Below, in pieces: positions 17,273-26,942 of a stretch of 64,000 bases of DNA (its first letter is position 1; each line of letters opens with the position of its first letter). This stretch comes from Kineococcus sp. NBC_00420 (GTDB lineage Bacteria > Actinomycetota > Actinomycetes > Actinomycetales > Kineococcaceae). The notes under the pieces were generated by a model, which worked only from the letters and a program-made list of their open reading frames with translations, was not told where the DNA came from and searched no databases. Where the stretch lies: the NCBI RefSeq assembly GCF_036021035.1, contig NZ_CP107930.1, positions 1,612,001 to 1,676,000 of the forward strand. The letters run 5' to 3'. Position numbers and translations under genes: made by a program.

Positions 17273-17608
17273 TCAGACGAGGCGACGCTCGGAGTGGTTC
17301 AGCCGCACCCGCAGCACGGTCGCGATGACGTCGCGGGAGGCGATGCGACGTCGCACCCGGCGTCCCTCCTCGACGACGACGACCTCGGGGCAGACGAGTC
17401 CGGTCGCGGCGAGCGCTCCCGCCGCCTCCCGGGAGAGCACCTCACCGGGACGCACCGCGGCCAGCGCCGAGCGGGTCGTGATGGGCAACGCCTGCCACCA
17501 GGCCGCGAGCGCGGGGTCCAGCTCCTGCCGGACGTAGCCCGTGCCACCCCAGGTACCCGAACCGGGGCCGCGGTCGTGGTTCCCGGTCGCCTGCACGTTC
17601 TCACTCAC
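17273..17608 (-). CDS. Small WW-motif protein, unknown
   Basis: This 111-residue protein has a GTG start at 17608 (VSENVQATGNHDRG). It has a central WW motif (LDPALAAWWQALPITTRSAL) shared with the protein at 16112-16324, then PGEVLSREAAGALAATGLVC and a charged C-terminal segment (EEGRRVRRRIASRDV) absent from the shorter relative. No known family is recognised. It lies 51 bases upstream of the epimerase on the same strand and may be co-transcribed with it. Confidence 0.6.
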   Translation of the reverse strand: MSENVQATGNHDRGPGSGTWGGTGYVRQELDPALAAWWQALPITTRSALAAVRPGEVLSREAAGALAATGLVCPEVVVVEEGRRVRRRIASRDVIATVLRVRLNHSERRLV

Positions 17609-17740
17609 GCCAGCAGTGTGGTCGACGTTCGAACATCGCGCCTCCGGAGCTGGCTCCGGACCCGTTCGGACCCTCAACTCCGGCGACCGCGCTGCCGAGG
17701 ACGAGGGGACGGGACGACGCACCACCAGGAGGACATCGAC

Positions 17741-19912
17741 GTGTTGGCGGCTCTCATCGTGCTGCGCACCCTCGTCGTCGTCGCGTCGTTCCTCGTCGTC
17801 GCCCGGCGGGCGTCGCGGGAGAGCGGTGCACGGACCCAGGTCCGGGGGTCGTGGCGGTCCTACCGCGCCGGTCTGGGCCTGCTGGCCGCGAGCAGCGCGC
17901 TCGAGACGGTCCCGGTGCTCCTCGGGCAGTCCGTCGGACGCGTCGGTCTCGGTCTCGTCCTGGTGCTGCGGGTGACCAGCACCACCGGCTGCTTCTTCCT
18001 CTACCACGGCATCTCCCGGTGGTACCGGGCACACGACAAGGGGCGTCCCTCCGGACGCGTCGACTGGCTGGTCGGGATCAGCTGCGTCCTGGGGGTCGCC
18101 GGACTGGCCAACGTCGTCCTGGTCGTCCCGGACGGCGGCACCGGTCTGGCCCAGCAGCTGCGGATCGTGCACGTCGCCTCGATCGCGGTGCTGCTGAGCG
18201 CCGTGGCGTTCTTCGCCCTGACCATGCCGCGCGATCTGCGTGGCCGGTCCACGATGGTCGCCGCGGCCGTCGCGCTCGTCCTGGTCACCCAGGTCGTCTA
18301 CCTCCTGCACGGGCCGCAGCTCGGAATCGTCCTCGCCTGCTGGACGGCGTGGGCCTACCTGGCCGTCGCCTACGCGATCGCCGCCTGCCTGCCCGCCGTG
18401 ACGCTGGGCCACCAGCACCACCGCATCCTGTCGGTGCCCGTCGTCAGCTCCGCCGGTCTGGTGCTCGGTCTCGTGAGCCTCCTCGGCGCCGGGCTGGTCC
18501 CGCGGCCCACGCACTGGGCCCTGTGGTTCGGGGCCGCGGCCATCGCCGGGTCGGGCGTGCGGCTGGTGCGACTGGTCCGCGATCTCGCCGACCACGACCG
18601 GGCCCGCCGCCAGGCCCGCACCGACGACCTCACCGGTCTCGCCAACCGCCGTGAGTTCCTCGACCACCTGCGCCGCGCCGCCGGCGAAGGCGCTCCGTTC
18701 GCCGTGCTGCTGCTGGACCTCGACCGGTTCAAGGAGGTCAACGACCAGCACGGTCACGCCGCGGGTGACGAGCTGCTCACCGCCACCGCCATCCGGCTCG
18801 GCTCCGTCCTGCCCCACCCGGCCCTGCTCGCCCGCCTCGGCGGCGACGAGTTCGCCGTCCTGCTGCCCGGTGCCGACGCGGCCGAGGCCGTCACGACGGC
18901 GGGTTCGATGCTCGCCGCCGTGTCCCGGGTCGACGTCGTGCTCGGTTCCGTCGTCGCCCACACCGTCGGGGCCAGCGTCGGCGTCGCCACCAGCAGCGGT
19001 TCCGACGGCCTGAGCGGCGAGGAGCTGCTGCGCCGCGCCGACGGGGCGATGTACACGGCGAAGGTCGGTGGGCTCGGCGTCGCGCTGCACGACGAGGTCA
19101 CCGACCGCGCCTGGCGCAGCCGGGTGCTGCTGTCGGAGGAACTGCACGACGCGCTGGGCGTGGACGCCGGACCCTGTGCCGCGGACGCGTTCGAGGTGCA
19201 CTACCAACCGCAGGTCTCCCTGGTCGACGACGAGGTCGTCGGCGTCGAGGCCCTCGTGCGGTGGAACCACCCACGCCTCGGTCTGCTGGCCCCCGGCGCG
19301 TTCCTCGACGTCCTCGAGGAACGCGGCATGATGCCCGCCCTCACCGTCCACGTCGCCCGCCGCGCGGTGACCGACCTGGCGGCCTGGCGCGCGGCGGGGT
19401 ACGACCTGCGGCTCTCCATCAACACGTCGAGCACCTACCTGTCCAACCCGCAGCTGCTGGAACTCCTCGACGAACTGGCCGAGGGGACCGACCCCTCGCG
19501 CATCGTCGTCGAGGTCACCGAGACCTCGTTGATGAACGAACCCGAACGGGCCCTCGCGACGTGCCGCGACATCACCGCCCGCGGGTTCTCGCTGAGCATC
19601 GACGACTTCGGCACCGGTTACTCCTCGCTGGCCTACCTGGCCAACCTGCCCGCCACCGAGCTGAAGATCGACCGGGCGTTCACCTCCCGGGCCCTCGTCG
19701 ACGACCGGATCACCGCGATCGTCGCGGGCACCGTGGACCTCGCCCACCACCTCGGTCTGCGGGTGGTCGCCGAGGGCGTCGAGGACACCGGCACCCTGGA
19801 GCTGCTGCGCGGGCTCGGCATCGAGGAGTCGCAGGGCTACCTGCACAGCCGGCCCGTCCCGGCGGGCGAGTTCCTGCGGTGGCTGCGCGGACGCACTCCC
19901 GCGGTCGTGTGA
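17741..19912 (+). CDS. Membrane GGDEF-EAL c-di-GMP turnover protein
   Basis: This 723-residue protein has eight or so hydrophobic helices (1-280), then a GGDEF domain with intact LARLGGDEFAVLL (GGDEF at about 367-371) and DDLTGLANRREF, then an EAL domain with GVEALVRWNH (about 502), DDFGTGYSSLAYL and VVAEGVED. It could both make and degrade c-di-GMP. No RxxD inhibitory site precedes GGDEF. In the EAL domain the usual NLSA is NTSS, while the EVTE motif is intact. GTG at 17741 has AGGAGG 9 bases upstream. It is convergent with the response regulator, 3 bases apart. The N-terminal sensor region is not a named family. Confidence 0.9.
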   Translation: MLAALIVLRTLVVVASFLVVARRASRESGARTQVRGSWRSYRAGLGLLAASSALETVPVLLGQSVGRVGLGLVLVLRVTSTTGCFFLYHGISRWYRAHDKGRPSGRVDWLVGISCVLGVAGLANVVLVVPDGGTGLAQQLRIVHVASIAVLLSAVAFFALTMPRDLRGRSTMVAAAVALVLVTQVVYLLHGPQLGIVLACWTAWAYLAVAYAIAACLPAVTLGHQHHRILSVPVVSSAGLVLGLVSLLGAGLVPRPTHWALWFGAAAIAGSGVRLVRLVRDLADHDRARRQARTDDLTGLANRREFLDHLRRAAGEGAPFAVLLLDLDRFKEVNDQHGHAAGDELLTATAIRLGSVLPHPALLARLGGDEFAVLLPGADAAEAVTTAGSMLAAVSRVDVVLGSVVAHTVGASVGVATSSGSDGLSGEELLRRADGAMYTAKVGGLGVALHDEVTDRAWRSRVLLSEELHDALGVDAGPCAADAFEVHYQPQVSLVDDEVVGVEALVRWNHPRLGLLAPGAFLDVLEERGMMPALTVHVARRAVTDLAAWRAAGYDLRLSINTSSTYLSNPQLLELLDELAEGTDPSRIVVEVTETSLMNEPERALATCRDITARGFSLSIDDFGTGYSSLAYLANLPATELKIDRAFTSRALVDDRITAIVAGTVDLAHHLGLRVVAEGVEDTGTLELLRGLGIEESQGYLHSRPVPAGEFLRWLRGRTPAVV

Positions 19913-19915
19913 CGC

Positions 19916-20572
19916 TCACCCCGTCAACCCGTTCTCGTAGGCGAAGACCACGATCTGCACCCGGTCCCGCAGCCCGAGCTTGCGCAGGATCGCCCCGACG
20001 TGCGTCTTCACCGTCGACTCCGAGACGAACACCAGCCGGCCGGCCTCCGCGTTCGACAACCCGCGGGCGACGGCGTCGAACACCTCGCGCTCCTTCGCCG
20101 TCAGGGCGAGGAACTGCGGCGGCGGGGGTCTCGTCGCGGTGAGGTCGCGTTCCAGCAGCCGCGTCAGGTCCCCCGGGGCCAGGACGGCGTTGCCGGCGTG
20201 GACGGTGCGGATGGCGTCGGCGAGCTGCGCGGGCGTGGTGTCCTTCAGCAGGAAACCGCTGGCCCCGTACCGGATGGCCGTGGCCGCCCGGTCGTCGAGG
20301 TCGAACGTCGTCAGCACGATCACCCGCACCGGCGCGGCCCGCCGCGCCACCCGTTCGGGCAGGAAGATCTGCCGGGTCGCCTCGACCCCGTCCATCTCCG
20401 GCATCCGCAGGTCCATCAGCACGACGTCGGGCGAGAGTTCCTCGGTGAAGCGCACCGCCTCCAGCCCGTCGCCCGCGGCACCGACGACGTGCAACCCCTC
20501 CTGCGCGTCGACGATGACCCGGACCCCGGCCCGGAACAGGTCCTGGTCGTCGACCAGCAGCACCGAGATCAC
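19916..20572 (-). CDS. NarL/LuxR-type response regulator
   Basis: This 218-residue protein has a receiver domain with acidic DDQD at 8-11 and phosphoacceptor Asp54 (VVLMDLRMPEMDG), T and K switch residues (VLTTFD, FLLKDTTP), and a C-terminal GerE HTH (LTAKEREVFDAVARGLSNAE, STVKTHVGAILRKLG). GTG start overlaps the kinase stop as GTGA. It is the last gene of an operon that also holds D-Ala ligase, alanine racemase and a VanX-like dipeptidase, so it may control them. Van-type regulators are usually OmpR-family, so this is not a VanR ortholog. Confidence 0.9.
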   Translation of the reverse strand: MISVLLVDDQDLFRAGVRVIVDAQEGLHVVGAAGDGLEAVRFTEELSPDVVLMDLRMPEMDGVEATRQIFLPERVARRAAPVRVIVLTTFDLDDRAATAIRYGASGFLLKDTTPAQLADAIRTVHAGNAVLAPGDLTRLLERDLTATRPPPPQFLALTAKEREVFDAVARGLSNAEAGRLVFVSESTVKTHVGAILRKLGLRDRVQIVVFAYENGLTG

Positions 20573-21789
20573 GCGCGCACCGGAACCCGCGCCGTCACCG
20601 AGAACCGCCCCGCCGGGCCGGGCGCGACCTCCAGGCCGCCACCGACGCCTTCGAGGCGCCGCCGCATCCCCTCGACGCCCCGCCCACCCGCCGAGGTCGT
20701 GCCTCCCGCAGCGGGGATCCCGTTGCTCACGTGCAGCTCCAACCACTGGTTCCCGGGGCCGGAGGACTCCCCCGGCCACCGCTGGACGACGGTCACGGGG
20801 GCGTCGCGGTCCCCGTGCCGCAGGGCGTTGGTCAGCATCTCCTGCAGCACCCGGTAGGCGACGGCCGCGAGTTCCGGCGGCAACGGACGCTCGGCCCCCG
20901 AGGTCGAGGAGACGATGCGGAAACCCGTCCCCCGCGCACCCTCGACCAGGCTCTGCAACCGCCCCGGCGCCGGGGCCTCCGCCGAGGCCGAGAGGACCTG
21001 CTGGACGTCGCGCAACGACGCCCGGGCCGTCCCGGCGATGGTGCCGAGCGTCGCCTTCAACGCCGCCGGGTCGTGGTCGGGGAGGAACTGACCCGACTCC
21101 GCCTGGGCCAGGATCACGGCCAGGGAGTGCCCGACGACGTCGTGGACGTCGCGGGCCAGGCGGGCCTGCTCCTCGCGCAACCGCGCGATCTCGTACGCCT
21201 GCGCGGTCTCCAGGTGGGCCTGGGCCGATTCCCGTTCGGCGGCGACGCGTTCCCGCCGCGACGTCGCGGCACTGCCCTGGAAACGCAGCGCGAGCCCCGC
21301 CAGCCAGGCGGCGGCCAGCACGAGCAGCAGGACGACCAGCGTCGCCGCCGTCCCGAACAGGTTGAAGGCGAACTCCACCTGACGCCGGACGAGGATCCCC
21401 GGGTAGTAGTACCCGCTGAACAGCGCCCCCGCAGCCACGAGGGTGCCCGTGACGATCGAGACGCCGGACAACCCCAGGACGAGGGGACCACCCCACCGCG
21501 CCGCCGAGAACGCGACGAAGAGCATGAAGGCCTGCGACAGCAGCATCGGGACGGAGTGGGTCAGCTGCAGCACACCCGTCAGCCAGGTCAGGCCCAACGC
21601 GATCCCCGGCAACGGCCGGGCGATCCCCACGGTCAACGCGACGAGGAGGACGAAGAACGGGCTCGCGCTCTCGTAGCCCGAGTCGGTCCGGACCCGGAGT
21701 TCCGCCAGCCCCGCGGCGGCGGTGAGGAGACCGAGCAGCACGTCGGGACCGAACCGGCGCACCGGGGTCGTCTCGTCGAGGTCGTCCAT
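20569..21789 (-). CDS. HisKA_3 sensor histidine kinase
   Basis: This 406-residue protein has about five hydrophobic helices (15-170), a coiled coil (176-210), the phosphoacceptor box RLARDVHDVVGHSLAVI with His216, and an ATPase domain with VAYRVLQEMLTNALRHG and GGRGVEGMRRRLEGVGG. It belongs to the NarX/DesK-type group matching its regulator. The extracellular part is tiny, so sensing is probably within the membrane. I chose the ATG at 21789; a GTG at 21819 would overlap the ligase stop as GTGA, which would fit the tight operon even better. Confidence 0.88.
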   Translation of the reverse strand: MDDLDETTPVRRFGPDVLLGLLTAAAGLAELRVRTDSGYESASPFFVLLVALTVGIARPLPGIALGLTWLTGVLQLTHSVPMLLSQAFMLFVAFSAARWGGPLVLGLSGVSIVTGTLVAAGALFSGYYYPGILVRRQVEFAFNLFGTAATLVVLLLVLAAAWLAGLALRFQGSAATSRRERVAAERESAQAHLETAQAYEIARLREEQARLARDVHDVVGHSLAVILAQAESGQFLPDHDPAALKATLGTIAGTARASLRDVQQVLSASAEAPAPGRLQSLVEGARGTGFRIVSSTSGAERPLPPELAAVAYRVLQEMLTNALRHGDRDAPVTVVQRWPGESSGPGNQWLELHVSNGIPAAGGTTSAGGRGVEGMRRRLEGVGGGLEVAPGPAGRFSVTARVPVRA

Positions 21790-21815
21790 CGGGACCACCG
21801 TAGTCTCCCGGACGC

Positions 21816-22793
21816 TCACACCAGGGCGTCGCGGACGAGCACGTCGAGGAGGTCCCCGTAGCCGAGACCACCCGCCGCGAACATCAACGGCGCCGCCGAG
21901 TGCGCCGTGAACCCCGGCGTCGTGTTCACCTCGTTCAGCACCACCCCGTCGGCGGTGAGGAAGAAGTCCACCCGGGCCAGCCCCCGGCAGCCGAGGGCGT
22001 CGAAGACGGCGACCGCCGCCGCCTCCAGCGCGCCCGCCTCGGACGGGCTGACATCGGCCGGCAGCCGGATGTCGGGGTGGCCGCCGTACTTCGCCGCGTG
22101 GTCGAAGATGCCGTCCCGCACGACCTCCTCGATCGGCGCGGTCCGCCGCGTCCCGTCCGGCCGGGCCAGGACCGCGACGCAGAACTCCCGGCCCACGACG
22201 AACTCCTCCACGAGCACCCGGTCGTCCAGCGCGACGGCGCTCGCGAGCGCCGCGGGCAGTTCGCCGGGTCTCCGGACCAGCGACACCCCGAGGCTGGAAC
22301 CCGCCGTGACGGGTTTCACCACCACGGGTCCGCCCCAGGGTGCGGCGAGGAGTTCCTCCCGGTCCGCGGAACCGGCCAGCAGCCGGCCGGGGGCGGTGGC
22401 GACGCCGACGGCCCCGGCGACCAGTTTCGTCGCCCACTTGTCCAGGGCCAGCGCGCCCGCGCCGACGCCGGAACCGACGTAGCGGACCCCGGCGAGTTCG
22501 CAGAGCGCGGCGAGGGTGCCGTCCTCCCCGTGGACGCCGTGCAGGACGGGGAACACGACGTCGCAGGTCTGCAGGACGCGCACGGCCCCGGCGAGGCCGA
22601 GCGGGCGCAGTTCGTCGTCGCGCCAGAGACCGTCGCGGTCGACGGTCAACCGGACGACCCGGTGGTGGCCGGTCTCCTCGAGTCCGGCGGCGACGGCGGC
22701 GGCCGAGGCGAGGGAGACGTCGTGCTCGCCGTTGCGGCCGCCGCCGACGACCGCGACCCGGATCTGCCCCTGGTCAAGGGTGGAACTGTTCAC
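21816..22793 (-). CDS. ddl: D-alanine--D-alanine (or D-Ala-D-X) ligase
   Basis: This 325-residue ATP-grasp ligase has the N-terminal VAVVGGGRNGEHDVSLASA, the substrate loop VFPVLHGVHGEDGTLAALCE, ATP-site VVKPVTAGSSLGVSLV, omega loop GIFDHAAKYGG and metal site RVDFFLTADGVVLNEVNTTP. The C-terminal block LGCRGLARVD...VLNEVNT.PGFT is also shared with VanA/VanG-type ligases, and the omega-loop KY pair is as in D-Ala-D-Ala ligases. The second substrate cannot be settled by eye. It sits between the racemase (38 bases upstream) and the kinase. Because a D-Ala-D-Ala dipeptidase is in the same operon, a product other than D-Ala-D-Ala should be considered. Confidence 0.88.
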   Translation of the reverse strand: MNSSTLDQGQIRVAVVGGGRNGEHDVSLASAAAVAAGLEETGHHRVVRLTVDRDGLWRDDELRPLGLAGAVRVLQTCDVVFPVLHGVHGEDGTLAALCELAGVRYVGSGVGAGALALDKWATKLVAGAVGVATAPGRLLAGSADREELLAAPWGGPVVVKPVTAGSSLGVSLVRRPGELPAALASAVALDDRVLVEEFVVGREFCVAVLARPDGTRRTAPIEEVVRDGIFDHAAKYGGHPDIRLPADVSPSEAGALEAAAVAVFDALGCRGLARVDFFLTADGVVLNEVNTTPGFTAHSAAPLMFAAGGLGYGDLLDVLVRDALV

Positions 22794-22831
22794 GTCGGAG
22801 AACTCCGTTTCTCTCCCCCGCGGTGCGGGGG

Positions 22832-23947
22832 TCAGGTGGTGCTGCGGTGGACCCGGCGGCCGAAGCCGACGAGGAGTTCGGCGTCGAGGCGGCCGCTCCA
22901 GCGCGCCCAGTCCGACAGTCGCGGTTCGCCGTGGTCACCGGGGCCGAAGACGGTCACGTCGGCGCCGAGGAGGAGTTCGGGGGCGGGCAGGTCCGCCAGC
23001 TGCCCGAGGTCCACGACCGTCTGGTCCATCGACACCCGCCCGACGACGCGGCAGCGGCGGCCGGCGACGCTGACCTCGGCCTCGGCGGCGAGGTCGCGCG
23101 GGACGCCGTCGGCGTAGCCGAGGGGGAGCAGCCCGAGGGTCGTGTCCCGCGGCGCGTACCAGGTGTGGCCGTAGCCGACGGGGGTTCCCGCCCGCACCCG
23201 GCGCACCGCGGTCAGCGGCGCCCGGAACGTGACGGCCCCGCGCAGCGGAACCGTCCCGGTGGGGTCGATCCCCAGCAACCCGGCGCCGATCCGCACGAGG
23301 TCGTGGTGCGACGAGGGGTCGGCGAAGGTGCCGGCGGTGGCGGCCAGGTGCGCGTCGGGTTCCAGTCCCGCACGTCGCGCGACGCGGAGGCCTTCCTCGA
23401 ACCGGCTGCGCTGCAGCGCGTTCTCCCGAAGATCCTCGGCGCAGGCGAGGTGCGACATGACCCCGACGACGTGGAGGCGGCCGGAGCGTTGCGCGGCGGC
23501 GGCCTGTTCGCACAACCGTGCCCACTCCCCCACCGCGGCGCCGTCGCGGGTCATCCCGGTGTCCAGGTGCAGGTGCACGCGGGCCCCGCGCGGCATGCCG
23601 AGCAGGTGGGCGAGACCGGGGACGGCGAGGTCGACGCCGGCGGCCACGGCGGGGCGGAAGTCGGTGCCCGAGGGGTTCAGCCAGCTCAGCACGGGCGCGG
23701 TCACGCCCTGCGCGCGCAACGCCAGGGCCTCCGCCACACCGGTCACCCCGAGCGACGTGGCCCCGCCGGCCAGGGCGGCGCGGGCGACGGCGAGGGCCCC
23801 GACGCCGTACCCGTCGGCCTTCACGACCGCCATCACGGCCGCCGACGTGCGGGCCCGGACGAGGCGGGTGTTGCGGGTCACGGCCGCGAGGTCGAGTTCC
23901 ACGATCGCCGACCCCGTGCGGGGCGCCGCGGCGAGGGTGGAGTTCAC
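22832..23947 (-). CDS. alr: Alanine racemase (PLP, fold type III)
   Basis: This 371-residue enzyme interconverts L- and D-alanine. The PLP lysine is Lys43 in VMAVVKADGYGVGA. Other family blocks are VGVMSHLACAED, RIGAGLLGIDP, VGYGHTWYAPRDTTLGLLPL with GYADGVPR, and SMDQTVVDLG with the second-subunit tyrosine region (GYGHTW). It lacks the membrane domain of VanT serine racemases. GTG start at 23947 overlaps the dipeptidase stop. Racemases of this class can also act on serine, relevant if the neighbouring ligase uses D-serine. Confidence 0.92.
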   Translation of the reverse strand: MNSTLAAAPRTGSAIVELDLAAVTRNTRLVRARTSAAVMAVVKADGYGVGALAVARAALAGGATSLGVTGVAEALALRAQGVTAPVLSWLNPSGTDFRPAVAAGVDLAVPGLAHLLGMPRGARVHLHLDTGMTRDGAAVGEWARLCEQAAAAQRSGRLHVVGVMSHLACAEDLRENALQRSRFEEGLRVARRAGLEPDAHLAATAGTFADPSSHHDLVRIGAGLLGIDPTGTVPLRGAVTFRAPLTAVRRVRAGTPVGYGHTWYAPRDTTLGLLPLGYADGVPRDLAAEAEVSVAGRRCRVVGRVSMDQTVVDLGQLADLPAPELLLGADVTVFGPGDHGEPRLSDWARWSGRLDAELLVGFGRRVHRSTT

Positions 23948-24567
23948 GACCGCACCTCCTCGAGGGGACCGTGCAGCGCGTGCTCCGCTCCGGTGACGGC
24001 GGCCCAGTAGCGGTCCCCGAAGCTCCAGTGCCACCACTCGGTGGGGTAGTTCACGAACCCCGCGGCGAGCAGCACGTCCCCCAGGACCTCGCGGTGGCGG
24101 CGGGCGGTCGCACCGACGGGCGCGGCGGTGGCGCACGCGCCGCGGGAGTCCTCGGGCGTCGCGTCGATCGGGGTGCCCAGGTCGAGTTCCCGGCCCCGCT
24201 CGTCGACGAGGGTGAGGTCGACGGCGGAACCGGCGACGTGCGGGGCGACCGCGACGGGGGCGACGAACCGGCTGGTGAGGTGGTGCACGAGGTCGTCGTC
24301 GGCGTCGGGGTGGGCGGCACGGACCTGCGCGGAGTACCTGGCGATGATCGCCCGCTGGGCGGAGAGTTCCCGGAGACCCTCGACCACCCGCAAGGAGGTG
24401 CCCCGGGGCAAGCCGTCCTGGGCGAGGGCGAGCCGGACCGCGACGGCACGGCGCACCCGGGCGCCGGCGGGCCCGAACCCGGGACCCAGGACGACCAGCG
24501 GGTCGCCGTCCTCCCGCACGGGGACCGCGGCCACCACCGGGTCGCTCATCAGCAGTTCGACGTTCAT
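23944..24567 (-). CDS. VanX-like D-Ala-D-Ala dipeptidase (peptidase M15)
   Basis: This 207-residue zinc peptidase has the metal and catalytic residues of VanX at identical spacing: His110 and Asp117 (PHVAGSAVDLTL), Glu177 and His180 (YPTEWWHWSFGD). Arg65 in VVEGLRELSAQ probably corresponds to the VanX transition-state arginine. No signal peptide is present, so it is cytoplasmic like VanX rather than a secreted VanY carboxypeptidase. It would hydrolyse free D-Ala-D-Ala. ATG at 24567 (MNVELLMSDP) is chosen over an in-frame ATG at 24609. It is the first gene of the dipeptidase-racemase-ligase-kinase-regulator operon and is divergent from the murF-like gene. Confidence 0.85.
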   Translation of the reverse strand: MNVELLMSDPVVAAVPVREDGDPLVVLGPGFGPAGARVRRAVAVRLALAQDGLPRGTSLRVVEGLRELSAQRAIIARYSAQVRAAHPDADDDLVHHLTSRFVAPVAVAPHVAGSAVDLTLVDERGRELDLGTPIDATPEDSRGACATAAPVGATARRHREVLGDVLLAAGFVNYPTEWWHWSFGDRYWAAVTGAEHALHGPLEEVRS

Positions 24568-24677
24568 CACGTCCTCAGCCTGCGGTGAACACGGGTACCG
24601 CGGGATCACCCGCAGGTACCGACGTCCGGTCCTCGAGGTGGAGGCGTCCCCACCCGCCGGTGCGGCAGCGTCGGGGT

Positions 24678-25976
24678 GTGCTCGAGATGACGCTGCAGCA
24701 GATCGCCACCGCCGTGGACGGCCTCGTCGTGGGTGACCCCGACCTCCTGGTCCGCGGGTCCGCCTACCTCGACACGCGTCGTGCCGTCGGGGACGGGCTC
24801 TTCGTCGCGGTGGCGGGGACGCGGGTCGACGGCCACGACCACGCGGGCGGGGCCCACGCCGTCCTCGGCTCCCGGCCGACGTCCGCGCCGACGGTGGTCG
24901 TCGCGGACACGACCGTGGCGCTCGGCCGGCTGGCCCGCGCGGTCGTCGCGCGCCGGGCGCCCCGGGTCCTCGCCGTGACGGGCTCGCACGGCAAGACGGC
25001 GGTGAAGGAGTTCCTGGCCGCGATCCTGCCGGGCGCGACGGCGACGCACGGCAACCAGAACAACGAGCTCGGGGTCGCCCTCACCGCGTTGCGGTTGCCC
25101 GCCCACGGCGGCGACCTGGTGGTGGAGATGGGGGCCCGCGCCGTCGGGCACCTGACCTACCTGGCCGGGATCACCCCGCCGGACCTCGGCGCCGTCACGG
25201 CGCTCGGGCACTCCCACCTCGAGCGGTTCGGTGGCCCGCACCTGCTGGAGGCGGCGAAGCGCGAACTGCCGCAGGCGACCTCGGGGGTCTGCGTGCTGAA
25301 CGCCGACGACCCGCGGGTGCTGGCGATGGCCGCCCACACCTGGGCGCGGGTCGTGACGTTCGGAACCCGCGGGGACGTCGGCTGGAGCGCGGTGACGCTG
25401 GACGAGGTCGGCCGGGCGAGCTTCCTGCTGCACCCCGGGGGCGCACCGGTGGCGGTGCGCCTGGGGGTGGTCGGCGCGCACCAGGTCGCCAACGCGGCCT
25501 GCGCCGCCGCCCTCGCCCTGGCCGCGGGAACCCCGGTGGAGGCGGTCGTGGCCGGTCTGGAACGCACGGGCGCGGGCGAACGCCGGTTGCAGCCCCGACG
25601 TCGTGACGACGGCGGGTTGCTGCTCGACGACTGCTACAACGCGGCTCCCGCCTCGATGGCCGCCGCGCTGCGGGCCCTCGCCGCGGTGGCCGGTTCCGGG
25701 CACCGGGTGGCCGTCCTGGGCGCCATGCGGGAACTGGGCGAGGCGAGCGGGAGGGGGCACCGGATGGTGGGCGCGCTGGCCCGCCGCCTCGGGGTCGACG
25801 TCGTCGGGGTCGGTCCCGGCGCGCAGGACCTCGCGGCGGGCGGCACGTGGGTCGCGGACCCCGGGGCCGCGCTGGAGGTGTTGCGGGAGAGGCTGTCCCC
25901 CGACGACGTCGTGCTGGTCAAGGCGTCACGGACGGAACGGCTGGAACGCGTCGCCGACGCCCTGCTCCCCCGGTAG
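24678..25976 (+). CDS. murF: MurF-like UDP-MurNAc-tripeptide:D-Ala-D-Ala ligase
   Basis: This 432-residue Mur ligase has the ATP loop VTGSHGKTAVKEFLA, the family segments HGNQNNELGVALTALRL, VVEMGARAVGHLTYLAGITP, ALGHSHLERFGGP and the C-terminal DDCYNAAPASMAAALRAL. MurF adds the D-Ala-D-Ala dipeptide to the cytoplasmic wall precursor. It is about 20-30 residues shorter than common MurF and stands alone rather than in a dcw cluster, so it is probably a second, accessory copy working with the divergent dipeptide genes. GTG at 24678 or ATG at 24687 are both possible. Its last 51 bases overlap the convergent murQ gene. Confidence 0.85.
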   Translation: MLEMTLQQIATAVDGLVVGDPDLLVRGSAYLDTRRAVGDGLFVAVAGTRVDGHDHAGGAHAVLGSRPTSAPTVVVADTTVALGRLARAVVARRAPRVLAVTGSHGKTAVKEFLAAILPGATATHGNQNNELGVALTALRLPAHGGDLVVEMGARAVGHLTYLAGITPPDLGAVTALGHSHLERFGGPHLLEAAKRELPQATSGVCVLNADDPRVLAMAAHTWARVVTFGTRGDVGWSAVTLDEVGRASFLLHPGGAPVAVRLGVVGAHQVANAACAAALALAAGTPVEAVVAGLERTGAGERRLQPRRRDDGGLLLDDCYNAAPASMAAALRALAAVAGSGHRVAVLGAMRELGEASGRGHRMVGALARRLGVDVVGVGPGAQDLAAGGTWVADPGAALEVLRERLSPDDVVLVKASRTERLERVADALLPR

Positions 25977-26942
25977 CGCGACGGCGGCGCGCACGGAACC
26001 GTCCGTCCGCGCCAGCGCCTCCCGGGCCGCGGCGGGGTCGCGGCCGGTGAGCGCCACGACCAGCGCGGTGGGCAGTTCACCGTCCGCCCGGGCGAGGGTC
26101 TCCGCGGCGGCGGCCGCGGTCAGTCCCGTGATCTCCTGCAGGACGCGGACGCTGCGCGCCTCGAGCTTGGCGTTGGTGGCGACCAGGGACACCATCAGGT
26201 TGGAGTAGGTGCGGCCCAGCCCGACCATGACGGCGGTCGAGAACCCGTTGAGCACCATCTTCGTCGCCGTCCCGGCCTTCAACCGGGTCGAGCCGGTGAG
26301 GACCTCGGGACCGGTGTCGACGGCGAGGACGTGGTCGGCGAGCCCAGCGAGGCGCGGTGCGGGGACGTTCGCGACCAGCGCCGTGGTGGCCCCGCGGGCG
26401 CGGGCCGCGCGCAACGCCCCGGCCACGAAGGGGGTCCGGCCCGACGCGGCGATCCCGACCACCACGTCGTCGGGACCGAGCGACGCCACCGCCGCGGCTC
26501 CGGCGTCCTCGTCGTCCTCCGCGTTCTCGACCGCGTCGGTGAGGGCGCGCTCGCCCCCCGCGAGGTGGGCGACGAACCGGCCGGGTTCGAGGGTGAAGGT
26601 GGGGCGCAGCTCCGCGGCGTCGAGCACCGCGAGCCGCCCGGAGGTGCCCGCGCCGACGTAGTGGACGCCGCCCCCGCGCCGCAGGGCCGCGACGGTCGCG
26701 TCGACGAGGGCCGCGAGCTGAGGGAGCACGGCCGTCACGGCGTCGGCGACCCCGCGGTCGGCGTCGTTGAGCATCCGCAGCACCTCGAGGCTGTCGACCT
26801 CGTCGAGGTGGGCGGTGCCGGGGTGGCGCTGCTCGGTCGGCAGGCCTTCGGTCTCGGAGGCTGCGGTCTCGGAGGCTGCGGTTTCGGAGGCTGCGGTCTC
26901 GGACGCCGAGGTCGGGCTGGTCACCGGCTCAGGCTCGCACAC
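25926..26942 (-). CDS. murQ: N-acetylmuramic acid 6-phosphate etherase MurQ
   Basis: This 338-residue SIS-domain enzyme removes lactate from MurNAc-6-P to give GlcNAc-6-P in wall recycling. Family blocks are PTEQRHPGTAHLDEVDSLEV, GGGVHYVGAGTSGRLAVLDA with the ELRPTF continuation, GIAASGRTPFVAGALRAARA, STRLKAGTATKMVLNGFSTA and VATNAKLEARSVRVL. The first about 30 residues are a SETAA repeat that is not part of the fold; a GTG at 26924 would trim six residues of the leader. It ends antisense to murF and begins 6 bases from the tRNA gene. Confidence 0.92.
   Translation of the reverse strand: MCEPEPVTSPTSASETAASETAASETAASETEGLPTEQRHPGTAHLDEVDSLEVLRMLNDADRGVADAVTAVLPQLAALVDATVAALRRGGGVHYVGAGTSGRLAVLDAAELRPTFTLEPGRFVAHLAGGERALTDAVENAEDDEDAGAAAVASLGPDDVVVGIAASGRTPFVAGALRAARARGATTALVANVPAPRLAGLADHVLAVDTGPEVLTGSTRLKAGTATKMVLNGFSTAVMVGLGRTYSNLMVSLVATNAKLEARSVRVLQEITGLTAAAAAETLARADGELPTALVVALTGRDPAAAREALARTDGSVRAAVALPGEQGVGDAFQPFRP
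26850..26909 (-). repeat. Four 15-base in-frame tandem units in murQ
   Basis: GGTCTCGGAGGCTGC occurs twice exactly, then once with a single change (GGTTTC...), then as a diverged copy GGTCTCGGACGCCGA. On the coding strand the units encode SETAA repeats in the unstructured MurQ N-terminus. The near identity implies recent expansion. Confidence 0.9.

Follow-up and report, generated by a model that had tools for sequence, protein, structure and literature searches.

A sensor-linked, Van-like gene module of actinobacteria that probably alters the D-Ala-D-Ala terminus of cell-wall precursors

Here, we analyse a compact gene block in Kineococcus sp. NBC_00420, found within a stretch of 64,000 nucleotides (contig NZ_CP107930.1, positions 1,612,001 to 1,676,000; the window). 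The block consists of vanX-like, alanine racemase-like (alr), D-Ala-D-Ala ligase-like (ddl), histidine kinase (HK) and response regulator (RR) genes, with a murF-like gene divergent from them. We consider it probable that this is a sensor-controlled Van-like module, which replaces the D-Ala-D-Ala terminus by D-Ala-D-X. By analogy with VanC and VanG, D-Ser is the most likely single choice for X, and the residue signatures of the ligase (Gln/Ala) and racemase (His/Ala) may leave room for others. In the mechanism we propose, the membrane kinase would sense wall stress, and the NarL-type regulator would bind a dedicated element observed between murF and vanX. VanX, in which the active-site residues are present, would hydrolyse D-Ala-D-Ala made by the housekeeping Ddl. 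The racemase, in which a key tyrosine is replaced, would make another D-amino acid, instead of or in addition to D-Ala; the ligase, which is changed at its specificity positions, would join that amino acid to D-Ala; and the second MurF would load D-Ala-D-X onto the precursor. Dipeptidase and ligase would act on different dipeptides, and hence no futile cycle would arise. The features of the block are as follows.

19916–20572, minus strand: NarL/LuxR-type response regulator (RR), 218 aa; Pfam Response_reg and GerE; GTGA overlap with HK
20569–21819, minus strand: HisKA_3-type sensor histidine kinase (HK), 416 aa; Pfam HisKA_3; GTGA overlap with ddl
21816–22793, minus strand: proposed D-Ala-D-X ligase (Ddl family); Pfam/NCBIfam Ddl, residue alignment, clade
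22832–23947, minus strand: fold-III amino-acid racemase (Alr family); TIGR00492 above cut-off, residue alignment
23944–24567, minus strand: predicted VanX-like (M15) D-Ala-D-Ala dipeptidase; Pfam Peptidase_M15 above cut-off, aligned active-site residues
24600–24647, minus strand: operator-like element, conserved, in the murF-vanX gap; matrix score 31.9
24678–25976, plus strand: second MurF, proposed UDP-MurNAc-tripeptide:D-Ala-D-X ligase, divergent; TIGR01143 above cut-off, clade

Each of the six genes, five on the minus strand and the divergent murF, is present with an open reading frame. An earlier note on this DNA had described the order dipeptidase-alr-ddl-HK-RR with tight joins, which can be read directly: GTGA is shared by the vanX stop and alr start (23947–23944), by ddl and HK (21819–21816) and by HK and RR (20572–20569), and alr and ddl are separated by 38 bases (22794–22831). 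The note's distance of 110 bases to a MurF-like gene holds from the vanX ATG at 24567 to a murF GTG at 24678; with an alternative ATG at 24687 the gap is 119 bases, and the listed murF frame, beginning at 24585, is too long. Its assignment of the regulator to the NarL type agrees with the Response_reg and GerE domains, and a simple hydropathy scan predicts several membrane spans in the kinase. The four VanX residues that it named (H110, D117, E177, H180) do not vary when the protein is aligned with enterococcal VanX and with DdpX of E. coli, and neither does R66; we take these five to be the Zn ligands and the catalytic Glu and Arg of VanX.

The block is not confined to one genome. A VanX homologue (E up to 0.001) occurs in 26 of 297 genomes of the order and, among the same-genus genomes listed, in 2 of 11, namely the window's own and G162. 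Outside the window's genome, larger stretches were taken around homologues at 16 places in 15 genomes. Six of these stretches contain the whole block, murF included, and G009 has the block without murF; the vanX-alr-ddl-HK-RR arrangement recurs in seven other genomes of the order. A wider scan of genome collections gave at least 588 confirmed relatives, and the best 80 of these, plus seven loci from the order, make up a set of 87 related loci, with genes called by a codon-bias script. The vanX-alr-ddl triad is seen in 70 of the 87, in Actinomycetota (63/80 from the wider scan); L081 is the same contig as L049, so this corresponds to 69 of 86 distinct loci. Kinase and regulator are also present in 53 of the 87. 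Carriers include Nocardioides, Jiangella, Kineosporia, Lentzea, Cellulomonas, Frankia, Paractinoplanes and Oerskovia. Because gene order and triad recur in other genomes, the arrangement reflects more than chance. The triad is absent from 17 loci, including Micromonospora loci whose layout resembles that of the pdx operon known from the literature. In a phylum sample the VanX alignment matched 17 of 396 genomes, a figure that we do not take as prevalence (seven candidates per genome were scored and the triad was unchecked). An AT3 acyltransferase gene, defined as a sequence cluster, neighbours the module in 32 of the 87 loci, and Pfam confirmed its identity in all three neighbours tested, for which the sole NCBIfam match was a weak one to SucT and not VanT-specific. 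The Frondihabitans sucicola module (L106) is decayed, with truncated alr and kinase calls and an element score of 2.4; and a VanX-like gene in L058 (8416–10228) lacks adjoining alr and ddl and lies beside a class I/II aminotransferase gene.

Within the window's genome (5.43 Mb, one contig), M15/VanX has a single match. Three ligases with strong Ddl matches are found (the best at 1034501, the third at 2717450), alongside one further copy each of alr (at 3728704) and murF (at 4866394), the latter within a run of Mur-ligase genes. The vanX-alr-ddl block and its murF therefore represent a second, accessory set. The genome's third Ddl-type ligase gene (L065, 5907–8083) lies directly after an aminotransferase gene. 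We also counted copies of ddl and alr in 21 module-bearing genomes chosen from the loci: all 21 have at least two ddl and exactly two alr matches. In Frondihabitans (G304), neither of the two alr matches is the truncated module copy. A linked murF is present in 7 of the 21, each of which has at least one further murF. Three of the 21 genomes have, besides the module, ligases whose signature is of the VanA (D-Lac) type; these ligases (L177, L178, L179) come from the genomes of L076, L093 and L121, and two of them are close to a MurF gene.

Both second-substrate positions that we examined differ in nearly all ligases of the module family. The alignment used E. coli DdlB, VanA and VanG as references, against which F230, K235, Y236, S299 and A300 of the window ligase correspond to DdlB positions 210, 215, 216, 281 and 282. 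With the window there are 70 triads; the gene script missed the ligase of L133, leaving 69 module ligases. Their non-Van counterparts (n=25) comprise actinobacterial ligases of the tested module genomes, DdlB and the solved ligase 3r5f; duplicates (L176, L180, L182–L184) were removed, and two Promicromonospora loci, L138 and L140, were left out of the 69 ligases and of the 68 racemases considered below. At DdlB Y210, all 69 module ligases have Phe, and the non-Van ligases have Tyr (24/25) or Leu (1/25). At L282, Gln is found in 67 of the 69 and Ala in the remaining two, the window and G162; the non-Van ligases have Met (16), Leu (5), Val (2) or Ala (2). Gln occurs here in none of the 25 non-Van ligases and none of the 5 Van ligases; the latter, VanA, VanG and three actinobacterial VanA-type ligases, combine Phe at Y210 with Arg at L282. 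Tyr216 and the preceding Lys are kept in all 69. Judging from the alignment, then, Phe at Y210 with Gln at L282 is the mark of the module ligase family. In VanC2, F250 and R322 reportedly decide for D-Ser, and the changes F250Y and R322M at these sites reportedly shift the enzyme toward D-Ala-D-Ala (work ascribed to Healy, Park and Walsh, 1998).

In a tree, thirty-seven module ligases, thinned from the 69, form one clade with support of 100/100, outside the housekeeping, Van and pdx ligases. A duplicate of the housekeeping ligase was considered as a candidate and rejected on tree position and on Phe at Y210. The ligases of four pdx-like Micromonospora loci (L131, L139, L141, L142) have Phe at Y210 and Met at L282 and form their own clade.

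The racemase is altered in a comparable way. K43, Y259, M307 and D308 are kept in the window protein; A356 stands at the position of Tyr354 (numbering of the Geobacillus racemase) and S306 at that of Cys311. Alanine specificity is fixed by this Tyr, which is replaced by Asn in the serine racemase VanT and by Ala in a broad-specificity racemase (PMC3485190, in excerpt). The gene script missed the racemases of L118 and L133, so that 68 module racemases could be compared with 20 others drawn from elsewhere in the tested module genomes, module copies removed. At the Tyr354 position the module racemases have His (64), Ala (2; the window and G162), Asn (1) or a gap (1), and the others Tyr (16), Trp (3) or Glu (1). 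Ser replaces Cys311 in 67 of 70 rows (the 68 plus two Promicromonospora racemases with Asn at 354). The window and G162 are alone among the rows in having Ala at both the racemase and the ligase site; they represent one branch, and the joint change is therefore only a hint. An alternative layout of the same pair is seen in the Promicromonospora loci L138 and L140, where the genes for a racemase (Asn at Tyr354) and for a ligase of the Phe/Gln type are on opposite strands, with a VanX-like gene a few kb away.

The racemase-ligase pair, encoded by separate genes in many actinobacteria, is one fused protein on Streptomyces linear plasmids. Three Alr-Ddl fusions were read out of four 'alanine racemase' matches listed:

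L068, 5627–7813: Alr-Ddl fusion, Streptomyces linear plasmid
L069, 5612–7813: Alr-Ddl fusion, Streptomyces linear plasmid
L071, 5612–7873: Alr-Ddl fusion, Streptomyces linear plasmid

The Alr + Ddl make-up was confirmed by domain search in one of the three, and all three share the module signature, His in the racemase part and Phe/Gln in the ligase part. In a second ligase tree (15 module ligases; DdlB, L181, L185 and this genome's third ligase left out), the fusion ligase parts, the module ligases and the two Promicromonospora ligases form one clade (100/99). Fusion of the two enzymes with the shared signature supports the idea that racemase and ligase act in sequence. The 7 kb flanks of the three fusions contain no annotated VanX. 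A GNAT gene follows each, and in L068 an AT3 acyltransferase gene also lies next to the fusion.

Upstream of vanX lies an element of 48 bases with the core CCTnGAGGACaG..CGGcACCTcAGGnGGAGG; in the window, the core reads CCTCGAGGAC-N7-CGGTACCTGCGG at 24610–24638. It scores above 10 in 52 of the 53 kinase-linked loci, window included, a count that is partly circular since these 53 loci also served to train the matrix; the one failing locus is the decayed Frondihabitans module. In 50 of these 52 the element starts 68–80 bases before the vanX start. As controls we used the 17 loci without a kinase pair and 1060 mononucleotide shuffles. Only 1 of the 17 scores above 10; this locus (L129), a contig of 3.2 kb, may be too short to show a kinase. 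The window element scores 31.9, the best shuffle 8.4; on the other strand, toward murF, the window element is weaker (24.1). A simple seed pattern alone finds 27 of the 53 kinase-linked loci and 1 of the 17 others. The exact core pattern occurs once in the 5.43 Mb genome, and we infer that the element is the binding site of the module's own NarL-type regulator. A wider regulon was considered and rejected: allowing up to two mismatches, ten genomes gave 63 matches, fewer than the 126 for a reversed control pattern. The core pattern also went unmatched at the module's own site in G107, G065 and G121.

The eight module MurF proteins also form one clade (100/99). Joined to it (95/94) are the MurF of one Nocardioides that has a single copy and, from Jiangella and Actinopolymorpha, two whose genes lie close to VanA-type ligases (L219 and duplicates of module rows were not part of the tree). 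A third MurF marked as van-linked (L222, beside another ligase in G135) lies outside the module group. The MurF clade fits an enzyme that accepts an altered dipeptide.

Several observations weigh against a D-Ala-D-X module. The window ligase passes two general, subfamily-level D-Ala-D-Ala ligase models, TIGR01205 (264.8 versus a cut-off of 245.65) and NF002528 (267.7 versus 262); the racemase likewise exceeds the cut-off of the alanine racemase equivalog (232.9 versus 168). Ala at L282 is also found in 2 of the 25 non-Van ligases and is thus uninformative for the window itself. It is because of this Ala in ordinary ligases, and of the general Ddl and Alr cut-offs passed, that we hold our interpretation less firmly. 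On the curated resistance models, by comparison, the scores stay below the cut-offs: 199.7 bits versus 520 for the D-Ala-D-Ser ligase model NF000207, 215.7 versus 495 for the VanG model, 169.9 versus 460 for VanT (NF033131) and 35 versus 320 for VanX (NF033115). Since the D-Ala-D-Ser, VanT and VanX cut-offs fail, we call the module Van-like and not a van operon. The housekeeping Alr of the window's genome outscores the module racemase on the VanT model (241.6 versus 169.9), and at site 354 it carries Trp instead of Tyr. The divergent murF is present in only 8 of the 87 loci, and no AT3 gene is found in the window block.

Three other explanations should be considered, one of which is a variant of our own. 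It is unlikely, in our estimation, that variant Alr and Ddl with an extra MurF confer resistance to a D-cycloserine-like dual inhibitor, the product still being D-Ala-D-Ala and the altered residues representing inhibitor-escape changes. Both targets of D-cycloserine, Alr and Ddl (PMC5717164, in excerpt), are indeed present as variants altered at or beside their substrate sites, and both pass the general models. However, VanX would destroy the product of such a pathway, yet VanX-Alr-Ddl is the constant core in 70 of 87 loci; the AT3 partner and the kinship of MurF to van loci would also go unexplained. Least probable, and to our minds very doubtful, is a role in peptidoglycan recycling or turnover, in which VanX would split D-Ala-D-Ala released from the wall, and racemase and ligase would re-use D-Ala, together with MurQ. 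E. coli DdpX, a VanX homologue, is encoded beside a putative D,D-dipeptide transporter, and murQ adjoins the module in the window. In contrast, a MurQ query gave 0 matches across the 87 related loci, there is no constant transporter neighbour (the one ABC-ATPase cluster is seen in 14 of 88 loci, in mixed places, other transporters not having been domain-searched), and the altered ligase and racemase positions would be unexpected. The earlier note had left the choice between a sensor-controlled change of terminus and recycling with murQ. The former gains from the other ddl, alr and murF genes and the changed specificity positions, and from a ligase clade separate from the housekeeping Ddl; the note would have given up its idea had the ligase grouped with housekeeping Ddl and the genome held no further ddl, alr or murF, and neither is the case. 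The latter is not supported by the related loci.

It is also conceivable, though we would not expect it, that the terminus is neither D-Ser nor D-Lac, being for instance another small D-amino acid or one later modified by the AT3 enzyme of the relatives. This variant belongs within the Van-like module and does not compete with it. Gln or Ala occurs where VanA and VanG have Arg, His or Ala occurs instead of the Asn of VanT, and the module ligases form their own clade; against this, the data do not specify the amino acid, and D-Ser by VanC/VanG logic is the nearest precedent. With the same reserve, we raise the tentative idea that remodelling exists in a third chemical form, in which the X of D-Ala-D-X is something other than lactate or serine, with a co-evolved racemase-ligase pair and its own NarL-type regulon.

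Two neighbours of the block remain to be mentioned. The ends of murQ (MurNAc-6-P etherase; 25926–26942, minus strand) and murF overlap by 51 bases. A large convergent gene on the plus strand (about 17500–19912) ends just short of the regulator gene; it presumably carries GGDEF and EAL type motifs.

How does the module compare with known systems? VanC/E/G/L/N operons consist of a ligase, a D,D-dipeptidase, a racemase and a two-component system, and the module likewise has all four. This D-Ala-D-Ser operon make-up is also given, in excerpt, in PMC12004154 and PMC12423673. With VanG the module ligases share Phe (VanG F252 position) and the KY of the ligase loop, and the AT3 partner seen in 32 of 87 relatives, as a separate gene, recalls VanT, which is an AT3 membrane domain plus a racemase and in which the role of the AT3 part is open (PMC12423673, in excerpt). 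The differences are these: the module ligase clade is separate and lacks the Arg of VanG R324, where it has Gln or Ala; the racemase is separate and soluble, with His or Ala instead of Asn; a VanX-like enzyme replaces VanXY; the regulator is NarL-type; a second MurF is present; and the curated ligase, VanT and VanX cut-offs are unmet. With vanHAX the module has in common VanX, a ligase, two-component control and, sometimes, a nearby murF (PMC8698665, in excerpt). A D-Ala-D-Lac operon was nevertheless rejected: the block has no VanH, its ligase keeps KY without the VanA loop, and a racemase is present.

Among arrangements described so far, the pdx operon and the racemase-Ddl-vanY-vanRS groups come closest (PMC8698665, in excerpt). 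The pdx operon of Micromonosporales, proposed there to recall D-Ala-D-Ser remodelling, combines a Ddl-like ligase, a VanX-like dipeptidase, another enzyme and a two-component pair, as the module does. It has a PALP-type dehydratase instead of the Alr-type racemase (domain searches find no PALP gene in the window block), its gene order differs, and the ligase clades are distinct, four pdx-like ligases having Met at L282. The other groups place a racemase and Ddl beside a regulatory pair, as here, and are set apart by description, with a VanY carboxypeptidase and VanRS-type regulators. In the excerpts of that survey of glycopeptide-resistance genes in >7000 actinobacterial genomes, the module is undescribed, and for Kineosporiales vanRSY alone is reported, in 1 of 12 genomes. 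The term 'alanine racemase' occurs 0 times in PMC9689679, and among the papers listed no title or abstract start describes vanX-alr-ddl with a NarL-type pair (subscription papers and supplements fell outside this scope). If our interpretation is true, a clade of ligases nameable as D-Ala-D-Ala ligase, and racemases nameable as alanine racemase, would belong to a regulated target-remodelling system of actinobacteria such as Nocardioides, Jiangella, Lentzea, Kineosporia and Cellulomonas. The module would also add a case in which AT3 acyltransferases are tied to a racemase-ligase pair. The residue signatures (Phe/Gln in the ligase, His/Ala in the racemase) and the promoter element make the claim directly testable.

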